A DNA stretch of 12,599 nt, taken from contig JAEERB010000067.1 in NCBI GenBank assembly GCA_016285615.1, positions 1-12,599 on the forward strand, in the 5' to 3' direction. The position numbers and the translations under genes were made by a program. Of the stretch, positions 933 to 5,960 are shown piece by piece. The notes under the pieces were generated by a model, which was not told the DNA's origin, made no database searches, and saw only the letters and a program-made list of their open reading frames with translations. The DNA comes from Bacteroidales bacterium (lineage in GTDB: Bacteria > Bacteroidota > Bacteroidia > Bacteroidales > WCHB1-69). The first letter of the stretch is position 1; the number at the start of each line of letters is the position of its first letter.

Positions 933-1568
933 TTACCAGTGTGGGTATTTCATTCGCACGATGTGGGCTAAAAACTGAGCCATCTGTTCGGTCGTGTAGC
1001 CCGACACATTAAGCACCATGTCGTAATTGCGGGCATCGTAGCGCGATATACCAGCAAAGGTTTTAGTGTAGTTTTCGCGGTCTTTGTCGCTTTGTTCCAT
1101 GATTTTGCGGGCCTTGTTTTCATCAATGTCCAGTCTTTCCATGAAACGGTTTATGCGATATTCAGGACTGGCAATCAGGAAAATGCGAATGGCATTGGGG
1201 TTATCCTTGAAAATATGGAACCCTGTACGACCTACAATAATGCAAGATTCTTGTCCGGCAAGTTCCTGAAGGATTTTCCTCTCCTCATGGTACAATTGCA
1301 GCGAATTGACCTCGTAGTTTTCGTAAGTGTTGTCGGCAACACTGCCGAATTGTTTGTAGAAACGGCAAAATTCAGCCCACCAGTTCGGCTTTTCAGCCAT
1401 GATTTTTTCGATCTGCTCAGGTGTGAGTTTATATTTGTCCATAATGGAGGCGAGGATTTCCTTGCCATAAATCTTCACGCCGAGCAATTCGGCCAGTTTG
1501 ATGGCGATTTCTCTACCGCCAGAACCTGCTTCACGGTTGATGGTGATGATGAATTTGTCGTCAGCCAT
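933..1568 (-). CDS. Cytidylate kinase-like family protein
   Basis: This 211-residue protein is of the cytidylate-kinase-like P-loop family. Visible motifs are an N-terminal nucleotide-binding loop, INREAGSGGREIA (residues 10-22), in which GSGGRE replaces a classical GxxxxGKS loop; a central strand IIVGRTG (110-116); and a lid-type segment DKDRENYTKTF (161-171) before NYDMVLN (181-187). Members probably phosphorylate a nucleotide or similar acceptor with ATP, but substrates of this branch are generally not established, so I do not call it Cmk. The start is the ATG at 1568, only 5 bases after the gatD stop, which strongly suggests co-transcription with gatD and gatE. It is the last gene of the leftward block and ends at the bidirectional hairpin. 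Family is confident; substrate is unknown. Confidence 0.88.
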   Translation of the reverse strand: MADDKFIITINREAGSGGREIAIKLAELLGVKIYGKEILASIMDKYKLTPEQIEKIMAEKPNWWAEFCRFYKQFGSVADNTYENYEVNSLQLYHEERKILQELAGQESCIIVGRTGFHIFKDNPNAIRIFLIASPEYRINRFMERLDIDENKARKIMEQSDKDRENYTKTFAGISRYDARNYDMVLNVSGYTTEQMAQFLAHIVRMKYPHW

Positions 1569-1573
1569 ATCTT

Positions 1574-3052
1574 CTATTTCCTTACTTTCTTTACGAATTC
1601 CTCTACTTCGGGAACGCCGCCTTGGTAAACGAGGTATCCGTCGTAGGGTTCGCGCTTGGTAATCTCATCGTTGATGGGGGTGAGCATCAGCTTCTTCACA
1701 TCTTCGCGCTTTTGGCCGCTGTCTTTGGTCAGACCGAGAGCCCAGCCGAGTTTGATGTAAGAGCTTTCTGCCAGCATATTGTCTGCGGGGATAATACCGC
1801 GGGCCATCATGTCACGGCCAGTGTCGTAAACGAACATGTGGGTGTAACCCCAGATGGTCTGTACACTCATGTACTGATGTACACCAGCGTCGGTGGCGCG
1901 TTGGATGGCGTCGAACATGTGCTTGTTAACGTGGCCAAGGCCAGTGCCGTCCCATACAATACCTTTGTAGCCATTGTCGATGAGGGCATCCAGTACGTCG
2001 GGTTTCATGCCCGGGTAGTAGTAGAGGATAGCCACACGGTCATCGAATGTGGGCACGATGCGGGTGGTGTTGGGGTCGTTCTTGGCGATGCTGCGCTTAT
2101 AGTCTTCATAGTTGGTAATAACCTCTACTTGACGATGTTGCTCGCCTCTGCGGCGGTGGTTATAGACTTCCTTGATGGGCTGTACGCCATCTTTGCGGTT
2201 CACAGTGGCCAGAGGCGTGTCGCCAATGGTACGGAAGGTGGAACGGTAGGAGGAGTGCATCTTACGCACGCGCGTGCCGCGGTGCAGGAAGCCGTAGTCA
2301 TCGCTGGTGGGACCGAACATGCAGACCATCACTTCGGCGATGTCGCCGTGGCCGGCAGCCGTCATGGCGTGCATCAGGTTCAATGCAGCGTCGGAACTGG
2401 GTCGGTCGGAAGAACGTTGTGAGCCTACCAGCACAACGGGCATAGGCAGGTTTTGGCACATGTAAGTCAGCGCGGTGGCGGTGTGCGCCAGCGTATCAGT
2501 ACCGTGGCCAATCACAATACCTTCAATACCAGCCTTGATTTCGTCGCCAATCTTGTTGGCCAAGGCTTTGTATTCAACAGGTGACATGTTTTCTGAGAAA
2601 ACGGCGAAAACCTTTTCTGTCTCCAGGTTGCAGATGTCGGCCAGTTCGGGCACAGCACCATACAACTCACCAGGCGAGAAGGCGGGAATTACCGCACCCG
2701 TACGATAGTCCAGACGAGAGGCGATGGTACCGCCAGTACCCAACAGTTTTACGTGGGGAAGTCCGGGCGTGTAAGGGAATTCCTTTTCGGGAATCTTGAA
2801 CACGGGTTGCGGGTCGCGCTCACCCTTCATGTCGGTTACGGTCTCAATATCGATACCGATATTGTAGCCGGTGCTGACTTTCATCACGATGTGGATGTCA
2901 TCAGTGTTTTCGGCACGGGGCAGAATCTTGCCCGAGAAGTGTCCGCGAGTGGTCTCCACCTCGGCTTTGTCCCATACGTGCACGTCGTATTTTTTGAGCA
3001 TCTCTAATGCTCTTCCTTTATATCCTTGAAATGTTACTTTATCGTCGTTCAT
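1574..3052 (-). CDS. gatD: Archaeal-type Glu-tRNA(Gln) amidotransferase subunit D
   Basis: GatD is the ammonia-releasing subunit of the GatDE amidotransferase, which converts Glu-tRNA(Gln) to Gln-tRNA(Gln). The ATG at 3052 gives 492 residues; a TTG at 3061 would add only three and is less likely. Residues about 1-90 form the GatD-specific N-terminal domain, with a KILPRAE..DDIHIV and GYNIGI pattern absent from ordinary asparaginases. An asparaginase I-type domain follows: GTGGTIAS (catalytic Thr109), HGTDT (Thr185, Asp186), GSQRSSDRPSSD (210-221), and RVRKMHSS with Lys264. The full Thr-Thr-Asp-Lys set is present, so the subunit should be active. It lies 37 bases downstream of gatE, which supports GatD over a stand-alone L-asparaginase. 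No Shine-Dalgarno is seen; an AT-rich 14-base repeat lies just upstream of the start. Confidence 0.94.
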   Translation of the reverse strand: MNDDKVTFQGYKGRALEMLKKYDVHVWDKAEVETTRGHFSGKILPRAENTDDIHIVMKVSTGYNIGIDIETVTDMKGERDPQPVFKIPEKEFPYTPGLPHVKLLGTGGTIASRLDYRTGAVIPAFSPGELYGAVPELADICNLETEKVFAVFSENMSPVEYKALANKIGDEIKAGIEGIVIGHGTDTLAHTATALTYMCQNLPMPVVLVGSQRSSDRPSSDAALNLMHAMTAAGHGDIAEVMVCMFGPTSDDYGFLHRGTRVRKMHSSYRSTFRTIGDTPLATVNRKDGVQPIKEVYNHRRRGEQHRQVEVITNYEDYKRSIAKNDPNTTRIVPTFDDRVAILYYYPGMKPDVLDALIDNGYKGIVWDGTGLGHVNKHMFDAIQRATDAGVHQYMSVQTIWGYTHMFVYDTGRDMMARGIIPADNMLAESSYIKLGWALGLTKDSGQKREDVKKLMLTPINDEITKREPYDGYLVYQGGVPEVEEFVKKVRK

Positions 3053-3055
3053 AAC

Positions 3056-3092
3056 TATCAATTAATAATTTACAATTAACATTTTACAATTA
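3056..3092. repeat. AT-rich repeat with 14-base period in the gatE-gatD gap
   Basis: Read on the + strand, three units follow at a 14-base period: TATCAATTA (3056), TTACAATTA (3070) and TTACAATTA (3084), separated by ATAAT and ACATT. The last copy overlaps the gatE stop codon and the first ends three bases from the gatD start. The island therefore fills the whole gap and forms the translation-initiation region of gatD. A second island with the same period and core lies at 7529-7556. Confidence 0.75.
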
Positions 3093-5042
3093 GATCTCCT
3101 TGGATAATTCGGTAAAGGGGACGTTGCCAAGGGCGAGGGTGCGCACGCTGCCGAGCAGACTGTTCTTGCGGTCTTGGGCGTTGGTGCGTTTGCGCATCGG
3201 CTTGAAAGCACCCGTGTTGGCTTGCATGCATGCAACAATCTCTTGCTTCGACGCTTTGCGGAAGCCAGTGAGTTTGAGCAACTCTTCCATGGAAGCTTTC
3301 GGGTTGGCGAACATCTGCTTCAGCATGTCGGCGGCAATGGCCTTGTCCAAACCTTCCTTCTTCAGGAATTCGAACAGGTCGAAGATTCTGCACTTGCAGA
3401 AAGGAAGTTCGCCGTATTGGCCGTGCAGGTGTTTCAGACGTTGGCCGAAGAAGGTTCCCAAGTATTTGGGGCAGTAGCCCAACTCTTCGGCAATCTTCTT
3501 GATGAGCGGGAAGAAGTTGTGGGTGAAGATATATTTGAAGCAATCTTCGGGAACATTCCATTGAACCATTTGTGCGTAGCGATCGGCCACAGCATCGGGA
3601 ATGTTCTTCTTCAACTCTTCGATATAATCGGCACGCAAAGGAATGGGAGCCGAGTCGGTATCGGGATACATACGGTCGGCACCGGGCAGTACGCGCTCGA
3701 AAATGGTCGTGCCGTCGGGCAGTGCCTTACGAGTCTCGAACGGAACACCGTCGAAGGTCATCAGAGCACGTTCTTCGATGGTCTCCAAAGCGGTCTTAAC
3801 GTCGTCTTCGGGAGCCCAAAAGATGATTTGTGCGTCGTTCTCGCCAGCGTGCAGCACTTCGGCAGCTCTTTCGAATACGCTGTTGCTAACCACATCTTCG
3901 ATATCTTCGCTGGTGGCCATGTTGGGACGCTCAAGGCAAGCGATAACCTTCAGCCTGTCAGCGAATTCGCAGTAGAAGGGATGGCCGGGTTGTACAAAGT
4001 GCGACAGCAAGCCTGCAAATTCGGGCAAGTTGACAGCATATACCTTTTCACCACGTTTGATAGCGTCGGTGATGGGGTCGTAGTAGAAGTGGAACTCTTT
4101 GGGATCCAGTTCTGTAACGGCCATTTTCCAATTTTCTTTCTTGATGCGCTTGGTCAGCTTGTCGCGGATGGCGAGCAATGCCCACTGACGGAAACATTCG
4201 ATGTGGGTAACATCGGGAATCCATTTGGTGTGAGCCACGCCCTTCACCTCGATACGGGTGCCACCGGTGCAGCTTACGTTTACGTCCTCACGACCAGCGC
4301 CGATGCCAGTGCGTACACGGCCGGTGCTGCGGTTCAAGAAGCGGATGTAGTTGCAAGCCTCTTCAACCTCGTCAGGGTTAACCATTTCAGGATAGGTAAC
4401 AGTCTCAATCAGAGGCATACCCAGACGGTCGGTGCGATAGATACGGGTGTGACCGATATCGGAAACCTCACGGCAGGCGTCCTCTTCCACGCTTAACTGG
4501 ATGAGACGTACTTTCTTGTGTTTCAGTTGGATTTCGCCGTCAATACCGAGGATGGCGGTACGTTGGAAACCAGTGGGAATGGAGCCGTCGAGGTATTGTT
4601 TACGGGTGATGTGCACCTCGCCTACGATTTTCAGTTTCGAAGCAAGGGCTATCTCGAGAGCATATTGCAGCGCCTCAGGGTTGATGGGGAACGGCGGTGT
4701 GTCGTCCACCTCGTAAGTACAGGCGGTGCGATGTGCAATGCGGTAGATGATGTTCTTGCGGGTTTTGAACTCCATGAGCGCAGTGCCGTCATATTCGCCC
4801 ATCTCGGAGAGGGTGGGACGCATGTGACGCAGCAACTCGGCGTCAAACTCATCGGGTTTTTGGAAAATGCCGGCAGGACAGCGGCAGAAAAGTTTCTCTT
4901 TAGTAGCCAATTGCTGGTGAACCTCCAAACCTGACTTGAACCCGATACGGTCGTAGTCTTGTTGGCTGGCTTCTTTACGATTCACATAGCCGATGGCTTT
5001 GCGGGAATCGTTGTAATTCTGGCGAGGATTGATTTTTTTCAC
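3090..5042 (-). CDS. gatE: Archaeal-type Glu-tRNA(Gln) amidotransferase subunit E
   Basis: GatE is the tRNA-binding, Glu-activating subunit of GatDE. At 650 residues it is slightly longer than typical archaeal GatE (about 620). The GatB-like cradle domain begins with GLEVHQQL (38-45), then LFCRCP (51-56), LRHMRPTLSEMGEYDGTALMEF split over 71-92, and REDVNVS followed by GGTRIEVKGV (251-269). An AspRS-like GAD insertion is seen around 335-425 (LPEFAGLLS, 339-347; PGHPFYCEFADRLKV, 352-366). Its presence separates GatE from bacterial GatB, which lacks it. ETRKALPDGTT (436-446) and PGADRMYPDTD (453-463) are further GatE signatures. A helical region and a YqeY-like tail follow; the tail end (about 615-650) is divergent. 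A -7 box lies about 38 bases upstream of the ATG at 5042. gatD follows on the same strand. Confidence 0.94.
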   Translation of the reverse strand: MKKINPRQNYNDSRKAIGYVNRKEASQQDYDRIGFKSGLEVHQQLATKEKLFCRCPAGIFQKPDEFDAELLRHMRPTLSEMGEYDGTALMEFKTRKNIIYRIAHRTACTYEVDDTPPFPINPEALQYALEIALASKLKIVGEVHITRKQYLDGSIPTGFQRTAILGIDGEIQLKHKKVRLIQLSVEEDACREVSDIGHTRIYRTDRLGMPLIETVTYPEMVNPDEVEEACNYIRFLNRSTGRVRTGIGAGREDVNVSCTGGTRIEVKGVAHTKWIPDVTHIECFRQWALLAIRDKLTKRIKKENWKMAVTELDPKEFHFYYDPITDAIKRGEKVYAVNLPEFAGLLSHFVQPGHPFYCEFADRLKVIACLERPNMATSEDIEDVVSNSVFERAAEVLHAGENDAQIIFWAPEDDVKTALETIEERALMTFDGVPFETRKALPDGTTIFERVLPGADRMYPDTDSAPIPLRADYIEELKKNIPDAVADRYAQMVQWNVPEDCFKYIFTHNFFPLIKKIAEELGYCPKYLGTFFGQRLKHLHGQYGELPFCKCRIFDLFEFLKKEGLDKAIAADMLKQMFANPKASMEELLKLTGFRKASKQEIVACMQANTGAFKPMRKRTNAQDRKNSLLGSVRTLALGNVPFTELSKEI

Positions 5043-5153: not shown

Positions 5154-5960
5154 TTAGCGCCCCGAAATTCTCTTTTTGAGCTCCTTCACTTCTTTGAATA
5201 AAGTGTTGTAATCAATGCGGAAGTGGTTGTCAATGAGGGAAAAAAAGGAGAGAAACTCCACGTTTTTTATTTTTTCGAAAAGAGTGGATATGGAGAGCCG
5301 GTTCAGGTAAAATTGCTGCTGGAGAGCTTCCTGTTCCACCCGATGGATGGCAATTTTGTATCCTTTTTCGTCGGTGACGATGCCATTTTTGTTCAAAAAA
5401 GAACTTCCTGCCTCAAATTGGGGCTTGATGAGCAGCACCATCTGCCCGTCAGGTTTGAGGAAAGTCTTGAAATAGGGGAAAAGACAAGTGAGTGAGATGA
5501 AGGAGACGTCAGTAACGATGAAGTCGAACTGCTGGATGGGTAGCTCCTGTGGTGTCAGCTCACGGAAGTCGGTGTTTTCGAGCGAGGTAACCTGCGGATG
5601 ATTTTGCAACGAAGGATGCAACTGGTTGCTGCCCACATCAACGGCAACTACATGTGTAGCACCCGCTTGCAGCGCACAGTCAGTGAATCCGCCTGTAGAA
5701 GAGCCGACATCCAGAACGGTCTTTCCGCTGAAGTCGAGGCCAAAGTCGTGGATGGCTTTCTCCAGCTTGAGGCCGCCGCGGCTGACATACTTGTTGAAGA
5801 TGTCGATGACTTCAATGTCGGCGCTTTCGTCCACCTCCTTGGAAGGTTTGGTCACCAGTTGGCCGCCAACCTTGACTGTTTGCTGTATAATAGCATCTTG
5901 AGCTTTCTCCCGCGAGGGGAAAAAGCCCAAGTGTACTAATAATTTGTCGAGTCTCATCAT
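5154..5960 (-). CDS. tlyA: TlyA-type rRNA 2'-O-methyltransferase (S4 + FtsJ-like domains)
   Basis: This 268-residue protein matches the TlyA family, which uses S-adenosylmethionine to 2'-O-methylate cytidines in ribosomal RNA. An S4 RNA-binding domain covers about residues 1-50 (RLDKLLVHLG, then SREKAQDAI and VKVGGQLV). The FtsJ-like Rossmann methyltransferase follows, with GGLKLEKA (62-69), SAM loop LDVGSSTGGF (83-92), VAVDVG (105-110), TDVSF (150-154; Asp151) and LIKPQFEAG (177-185; Lys179, Glu183). These are consistent with the family's K-D-K-E centre. Some members were once annotated as haemolysins. Start is MM at 5960/5957; either Met could be used. It follows pepD by 30 bases on the same strand. 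It appears more AT-rich than its neighbours, with homopolymer A/T runs. Family is confident; the exact rRNA target is not visible. Confidence 0.92.
   Translation of the reverse strand: MMRLDKLLVHLGFFPSREKAQDAIIQQTVKVGGQLVTKPSKEVDESADIEVIDIFNKYVSRGGLKLEKAIHDFGLDFSGKTVLDVGSSTGGFTDCALQAGATHVVAVDVGSNQLHPSLQNHPQVTSLENTDFRELTPQELPIQQFDFIVTDVSFISLTCLFPYFKTFLKPDGQMVLLIKPQFEAGSSFLNKNGIVTDEKGYKIAIHRVEQEALQQQFYLNRLSISTLFEKIKNVEFLSFFSLIDNHFRIDYNTLFKEVKELKKRISGR

Follow-up and report, generated by a model that had tools for sequence, protein, structure and literature searches.

The archaeal amidotransferase GatDE consists of GatD, which releases ammonia from glutamine, and GatE, which activates the glutamate carried by tRNA-Gln and amidates it. 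The solved complexes closest to the proteins described here are those of Pyrococcus abyssi (1zq1) and Methanothermobacter thermautotrophicus (2d6f). Excerpts of one review summarize the indirect pathway to Gln-tRNA (PMC9499178) and, like excerpts of a second (PMC8007984), place GatDE in archaea only; one of the two uses this distribution to argue about the amidotransferases of the last common ancestor. Here we describe a 12,599-nucleotide stretch of DNA from a Bacteroidales bacterium (contig JAEERB010000067.1; the whole stretch is referred to below as the window) that carries a gatE–gatD pair.

The window proteins share with archaeal GatDE both subunits, the domain order, the active-site residues, the place of the GAD insertion and the GatE fold. 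They differ in the low identity of GatE to its archaeal counterparts (30–34%), in the operon-like pairing of the two genes, in a longer N-terminus of GatE (in the group called type 1 below, to which the window belongs) and in an extra conserved stretch at the C-terminus of GatD; the host differs in having glutaminyl-tRNA synthetase (GlnRS) and a U1-A72 tRNA-Gln. From the sequences we consider it probable that GatDE of these bacteria actively amidates Glu-tRNA(Gln) alongside GlnRS. An amidotransferase is also kept beside a direct synthetase in Thermus, Deinococcus and Bdellovibrio, according to excerpts of two papers (PMC4206432, PMC3927822), but there it is GatCAB, discussed for Asn made on tRNA(Asn), whereas the enzyme described here is GatDE, which is described in archaea as serving Gln-tRNA(Gln).

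The enzyme family itself is known. No report of GatDE in bacteria was found in the open-licence literature searched, subscription papers lying outside that scope, and its presence in bacteria, in the order Bacteroidales mostly beside GlnRS and without GatCAB, is apparently unreported in that literature. Databases already name these proteins automatically: a protein search returned at least 8000 hits, and those named by NCBI among the best 120 read 'GatE [Bacteroidales bacterium]'. Given such names, a specialist may have noticed bacterial GatDE already.

Identity and conservation of the pair

GatE of the window scores 461.0 bits against NF003107 (cut-off 456) and 406.3 bits against TIGR00134 (cut-off 319.55). 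The best GatB model gives it 121.8 bits against a cut-off of 338, and the 650-residue protein is GatE and not GatB, in agreement with the original prediction made from the letters of the window. By phmmer, its best matches among solved structures are archaeal (1zq1, 5.6e-88; 2d6f, 1.2e-85), the alignment to archaeal GatE beginning only at residue 29, past the longer N-terminus. With the GatB subunit of bacterial GatCAB it has in common the GatB_N catalytic domain and, weakly, a YqeY-type tail (GatB_Yqey, PF02637; 17.5 bits, cut-off 27); it differs from GatCAB in lying far under the GatB cut-offs, in its GAD insertion and in its partner, an asparaginase-type GatD where GatCAB has GatA (the searches covered GatB but not GatA).

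The AspRS-like GAD insertion had been predicted with the proviso that its absence from a profile search would tell against it, and it came close to that outcome, the Pfam model PF02938 reaching 16.0 bits against a cut-off of 23.4. GatE-specific profiles and Pyrococcus GatE (1zq1) nevertheless align through the region, and it is these alignments and the fold of the whole protein, not the Pfam model alone, that identify the insertion. A structure of GatE predicted from a 31-row alignment that includes archaeal GatE has a mean predicted local distance difference test score (pLDDT) of 87. Its first match among solved structures is 1zq1_C (E 6e-42, template modelling score 0.84 by target), with 2d6f among the best; the other GatE chains and GatB chains follow, and after them, weakly, aspartyl-tRNA synthetases (E 0.014 and worse). 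Residues E40/H42, E186/E187 and E213, which we take to be catalytic, are invariant in 31 alignment rows, and their positions also align in GatB.

As a separate observation, the last 45 residues of GatE correspond to window positions 3093–3227, and in the nearest genome, G001, the archaeal GatE profile ends at position 570 of 622. Of the 65 carriers in the order, 11 (among them G001) have a match that ends before position 590, and in the others it reaches 596–621; the extreme C-terminus is divergent in those 11 carriers.

GatD scores 460.9 bits against TIGR02153 (cut-off 324), is also over the cut-off of NF003217, and matches the GatD-specific N-terminal domain PF18195 with 41.2 bits (cut-off 25.7); an intact GatE beside an intact GatD with its own N-terminal domain is what had been predicted. 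The best matches among solved structures are 2d6f_A (5.2e-102) and 1zq1_A (7.8e-102), by phmmer. The four residues previously listed as Thr109, Thr185, Asp186 and Lys264 are all present, but that list mixed two numberings: counted from the first codon, TTG, they are T109, T188, D189 and K267, and from the ATG they are T106, T185, D186 and K264. This set, presumably catalytic as in the asparaginase family, is invariant in a 19-row alignment of type-1 GatD. A conserved C-terminal stretch of the YLVYQGGVPEVEEF type extends about 18 residues past the end of the solved Pyrococcus chain and is present in nine loci inspected, of both type 1 and type 2.

Both subunits were found in 85 of 100 loci compared; in 78 of the 85 they lie on one strand with a gap of less than 400 bases, and in the other seven within 2.1 kb. 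GatD was not detected in the remaining 15 loci, in eight of which the DNA examined ends within 0.5 kb of GatE. Among the others, L045, L047, L053 and L055 have GatE with 6 kb of following DNA in which GatD was not found, and it may be elsewhere in the genome; in L033, L034 and L079 it was not detected in the 1.3–2.9 kb following GatE.

Both genes appear to be under purifying constraint. The ratio of nonsynonymous to synonymous substitution rates (dN/dS) between the window and ten type-1 relatives with computable dS (0.8–1.75) is 0.066–0.134 for GatE and 0.019–0.032 for GatD, and such low values in both genes argue for function. Three further relatives were saturated in dS, and the near-identical locus L001 (0.015 and 0) was excluded from these ranges. 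In the rumen clade GatD is far more conserved than GatE, with protein identities of 95–99% against 80–90%.

Distribution among bacteria and co-occurrence with GlnRS

The original prediction left open how widespread the pair is in the phylum. It is spread widely: of 149 genomes sampled in the order, 63 have GatE over the TIGR00134 cut-off, and with G048 and G096, each of which has a large GatE piece under the cut-off, we count 65 carriers. Within the family of the window, GatE is present in G001 and G121 and absent from G002. A sample of the phylum gave 22 carriers in 296 genomes, namely G001 and 21 genomes outside the class, of which G274, G282 and G443 are single contigs. The named matches to GatE of G282 are Ignavibacterium, Ignavibacteriales, Ignavibacteriaceae and one plain 'bacterium'; some, if not all, of the hosts outside the class therefore belong to the Ignavibacteria. 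A genome scan found 80 loci in records titled bacteria, mostly Bacteroidales or Bacteroidetes; also among them are a few bins titled as other groups, namely Neomarinimicrobiota/Fidelibacterota (L064, L072), Ignavibacteria (L074), Calditrichota (L076), Bdellovibrionales (L078) and Zixibacteria (L080). The control Bacteroides ihuae gave no GatE match in the TIGR00134 search, an absence that is perhaps one reason for the system having escaped notice.

Since the reviews call GatDE archaeal only (PMC8007984, PMC9499178, both in excerpt), archaeal DNA in a bacterial bin or a chimeric contig might be suspected. We attach practically no weight to this reading, which the observations have already refuted. 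G001, a goat-rumen Bacteroidales bin (96% complete, 4% contamination) that contains locus L001, is 97–98% identical to the window in DNA over the aligned stretches and has the genes from rpe through ferritin in the same order, although additional DNA separates some of them. Because the same bacterial neighbours recur in this second assembly of about 98% identity, the window is not chimeric, and the earlier claim of GatDE in a bacterium with bacterial neighbours stands. The 80 loci from records titled bacteria are 52–100% identical to the window GatE, against 30–34% for archaeal GatE, and three of the carriers are the single-contig genomes G274, G282 and G443.

Redundancy with GlnRS, the key question, had been raised together with a search of the full genome for glnS and for the gat genes. 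Applied to G001, the nearest genome, that search gave an intact GlnRS frame of 558 codons and no GatB over the cut-off (again with GatA outside the search). In the order, 134 of 149 genomes have a GlnRS over the cut-off, G059, G075, G129 and G138 have it in pieces, and 11 have no convincing GlnRS. It is present in 59 of the 65 GatE carriers. Ten of the 149 genomes, seven of them carriers, have a GatB over the cut-off, and 55 of the 65 carriers combine GatE and GlnRS with no GatB over the cut-off. These 55 break the rule, used in an excerpt of PMC3927822, that a bacterium with GlnRS but no GatCAB lacks an indirect route to Gln-tRNA. Among the 21 carriers outside the class, GlnRS was found in 19 and GatB in 16. 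GatDE and GlnRS occur without GatB in the single-contig G443 and in G310, G322 and G346, and G266 has a GatB fragment only; all three single-contig genomes encode both GatDE and GlnRS.

It is conceivable that GatDE is instead the main route to Gln-tRNA, GlnRS being a spare or in the course of loss and repeatedly replaced. GatE-bearing genomes in which GlnRS was not found would fit: six of the 65 in the order (G010, G035, G076, G128, G131, G142), three of 12 locus-derived genomes (G447, Ignavibacteria; G449, Bdellovibrionales; G452, Odoribacter OttesenSCG) and two of the 21 outside the class (G400, G436). Within one genus, moreover, G035 has GatE and no GlnRS, and G149 has GlnRS and no GatE. 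Yet we judge this reading decidedly unlikely. GlnRS is retained in the great majority of carriers of the order, GatB is also present in G010, G128, G131, G400 and G436, and G142 is 83% complete. G447 has no GluRS-like match at all and G400 a fragment of GluRS (glutamyl-tRNA synthetase) only, so that these genome copies may be incomplete. A loss in G035 is not decidable, since the gene order around GlnRS differs between G149 and G035. Replacement of GlnRS by GatDE is accordingly possible but unproven, and the lineage-specific replacement of the original prediction finds no support for the window's species or for most carriers.

G076 (99% complete), the most complete candidate in the order for GatDE in place of GlnRS, was considered as a case of GlnRS loss and rejected. 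Judged from the gene order of its relative G458, GlnRS should lie about 1 kb beyond a contig end: C83 starts some 1 kb short of the expected site, and C15 stops about 1.1 kb after GluRS. The contig break is next to a short dispersed repeat, so GlnRS is probably unassembled; the four other genomes of the same family have it. The repeat, of about 85 bases, occurs in many copies in G459 and G076, lies upstream of GlnRS (L199, about 5275–5360), and a G076 contig ends nearby.

Proposed function and the tRNA-Gln partner

Our analysis directly supports the identity of the two genes, their intact active-site residues, the fold, the selection, the spread and the co-occurrence with GlnRS; from these we infer the reaction. 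GatD would free ammonia from glutamine, and GatE would activate the glutamate on misacylated Glu-tRNA(Gln) and amidate it to Gln-tRNA(Gln). GlnRS would supply most Gln-tRNA, GatDE rescuing the Glu-tRNA(Gln) that GluRS may make on the bacterial-type U1-A72 tRNA-Gln. The presence of GatE in G035 (96% complete), G452 and G449, where GlnRS was not found, is what one would expect of a GatDE able to provide Gln-tRNA (of these three, the GatB search covered G035). Because the nearest genome has a normal GlnRS, GatDE would be a second indirect route or a repair step and not the sole source of Gln-tRNA; between these two, any choice is a guess. Bacteria that have GlnRS as well as GatDE provide a natural test of the role of an amidotransferase where it is not the only way of charging tRNA-Gln.

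Several observations on the tRNA and its synthetases weigh against such an activity, as does the rejection of G076 above. Among the 45 tRNA genes of G001 are tRNA-Gln(UUG) and tRNA-Gln(CUG), both with U1-A72 and A73. In 30 genomes of the order, 15 with and 15 without GatE (a biased set, taken as the best of 87 matching the query), U1-A72 was present in 32 of 32 tRNA-Gln sequences and A73 in 30 of 32. No difference between GatE-bearing and GatE-lacking genomes of this set was seen in the 1-72 pair of tRNA-Gln(UUG), nor does any difference in the discriminator track GatE. The exceptions are the two tRNA-Gln sequences of G067, a GatE carrier, both of which have G73; as this is one of 15 carriers, neither tRNA trait follows GatE. 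An excerpt of PMC9499178 gives G73 as the bacterial and A73 as the archaeal form of tRNA-Gln, and reports that archaeal GatDE uses the D-loop and the A1:U72 pair. That pair is not the one found here. If it uses tRNA-Gln, bacterial GatDE must therefore tolerate or prefer the reverse pair. The 1-72 pair is a property of the tRNA partner and bears on how GatDE works, not on what it is.

The second set of adverse observations concerns GluRS. An excerpt of PMC3927822 infers that GluRS of bacteria with GlnRS and without GatCAB (12 of 14 Bacteroidetes there) rejects tRNA-Gln, and a GluRS that did so would leave little substrate for GatDE; the word GatDE is absent from that paper. The equivalent of Arg358 of Thermus thermophilus GluRS is Arg in 21 of the 22 GluRS read, a set that has neither G051 (no frame in its locus) nor G001. 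We had considered this position as a marker of GluRS discrimination, but it is uninformative, since the control G153, which has GatB and no GlnRS, also has Arg.

Bacterial GatDE might alternatively have moved to another substrate, such as a different mis-charged tRNA or an amide transfer outside translation, leaving Gln-tRNA to GlnRS alone. Its stable coexistence with GlnRS, the U1-A72 pair in place of the A1:U72 read by the archaeal enzyme (PMC9499178, in excerpt) and the similarity of tRNA-Gln in carriers and non-carriers of the biased set are compatible with this, but GatE keeps its GAD-like and tail regions and a full GatE fold and passes the GatE equivalog cut-off. We regard a change of substrate as unlikely, and retain amidation of Glu-tRNA(Gln) beside GlnRS as the probable function.

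Origin of bacterial GatDE and setting of the pair

A tree of 58 GatE without an outgroup included nine archaeal rows (Thermococcales, Methanothermobacter and half a Natrinema gene) and the GatE of 18 of the 21 carriers outside the class (all but G205, G216 and G232). A long branch (100/100) separates the archaeal rows from the rest. Type 1 forms one group (100/99) of the window clade with Calditrichota, Zixibacteria, Bdellovibrionales and Fidelibacterota bins, an Ignavibacteria bin and G306; with several phyla inside it, type 1 has either moved between bacteria or is old. Type 2 forms another group (99/99) and holds 17 of the 18 sequences from outside the class. The tree program warns of long branches meeting at the junction of archaea, type 1 and type 2.

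In a second tree four GatB rows served as outgroup and 14 of the 58 rows (11 bacterial, three archaeal) were dropped. The bacterial GatE come together at 92/89, but the approximately unbiased (AU) test does not reject trees joining archaea with type 2 (p 0.19) or with type 1 (p 0.45), and the branches are long. The sequences thus do not resolve the root among archaea, type 1 and type 2, nor the donor, the direction or the number of transfers, and the old acquisition from archaea suggested by the original prediction is not demonstrated, the bacterial sequences forming two deep clades apart from the nine archaeal rows. The archaeal sampling is thin, and the bacteria may still nest inside archaea. 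A single bacterial history is favored by the gatE–gatD pairing and the GatD C-terminal stretch common to both types. Recent transfer from archaea into the window's species is excluded, because the order holds a graded series of relatives.

A broader interpretation can be offered tentatively, and we think it possible but doubtful. Far from being an archaeal enzyme that a few bacteria borrowed, GatDE may be an old second tRNA-dependent amidotransferase of Bacteroidota/Ignavibacteria and neighboring phyla, adapted to U1-A72 tRNA-Gln and long retained for the repair of Glu-tRNA(Gln) in the presence of GlnRS. It would then have been inherited vertically from the GatDE already proposed for the last universal common ancestor, or have arrived by one very old inter-domain transfer. 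Were this true, the lineage was perhaps overlooked because the well-studied Bacteroides lack GatDE. In any case, a wide and conserved bacterial group changes the data behind the argument on the last common ancestor, which can now be tested.

No archaeal relatives were found among viral contigs, and phage records gave four partial hits of 24–27% identity. The plasmid search gave one archaeal relative, a gatE on a megaplasmid of Natrinema thermotolerans (L167, 3001–4850), which lies frameshifted in two frames with no annotated gatD beside it; only the tree without an outgroup includes this gene, and only its first half.

The features of the pair are listed in Table 1. The genes follow each other with 28 bases between them, gatE first.

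Table 1. Features of the gatE–gatD locus in window coordinates
Feature	Position	Strand	Details and basis
gatE, transamidase subunit of Glu-tRNA(Gln) amidotransferase (predicted)	3090..5042	-	650 aa, GTG start; NF003107, TIGR00134
GAD (AspRS-like) insertion of GatE, residues 324-417	3792..4073	-	PF02938 below cut-off; GatE profile and Pyrococcus alignments
GatB/YqeY-type C-terminal tail of GatE, residues 532-605	3228..3449	-	PF02637 below cut-off; helical in model
gatD, asparaginase-like glutaminase subunit (predicted)	1574..3061	-	495 aa (TTG); 492 aa from ATG at residue 4; TIGR02153, NF003217
GatD-specific N-terminal domain, residues 29-75	2837..2977	-	PF18195, 1.1e-10
GatD stretch from T109 through T188 and D189 to K267 (asparaginase-type set, presumably catalytic)	2261..2737	-	Positions read; 19-row alignment
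Cytidylate-kinase-like gene, 5 bases past gatD	933..1568	-	PF13189

The cytidylate-kinase-like gene is left out of the system because, among the 100 loci, it was matched only in the near-identical L001. By profile searches the remaining genes of the window are also bacterial in kind: ferritin, TlyA, an M20 dipeptidase, a LolD-like ATPase, ribulose-phosphate epimerase, a DUF4270/BamH-like protein, a glycogen-synthase-like protein and LepA, which is cut by the window end. Outside L001 they adjoin the pair only sporadically, with scattered matches to tlyA in L018, to lepA in L015 and L140 and, weakly, of ATPases to lolD in four loci.

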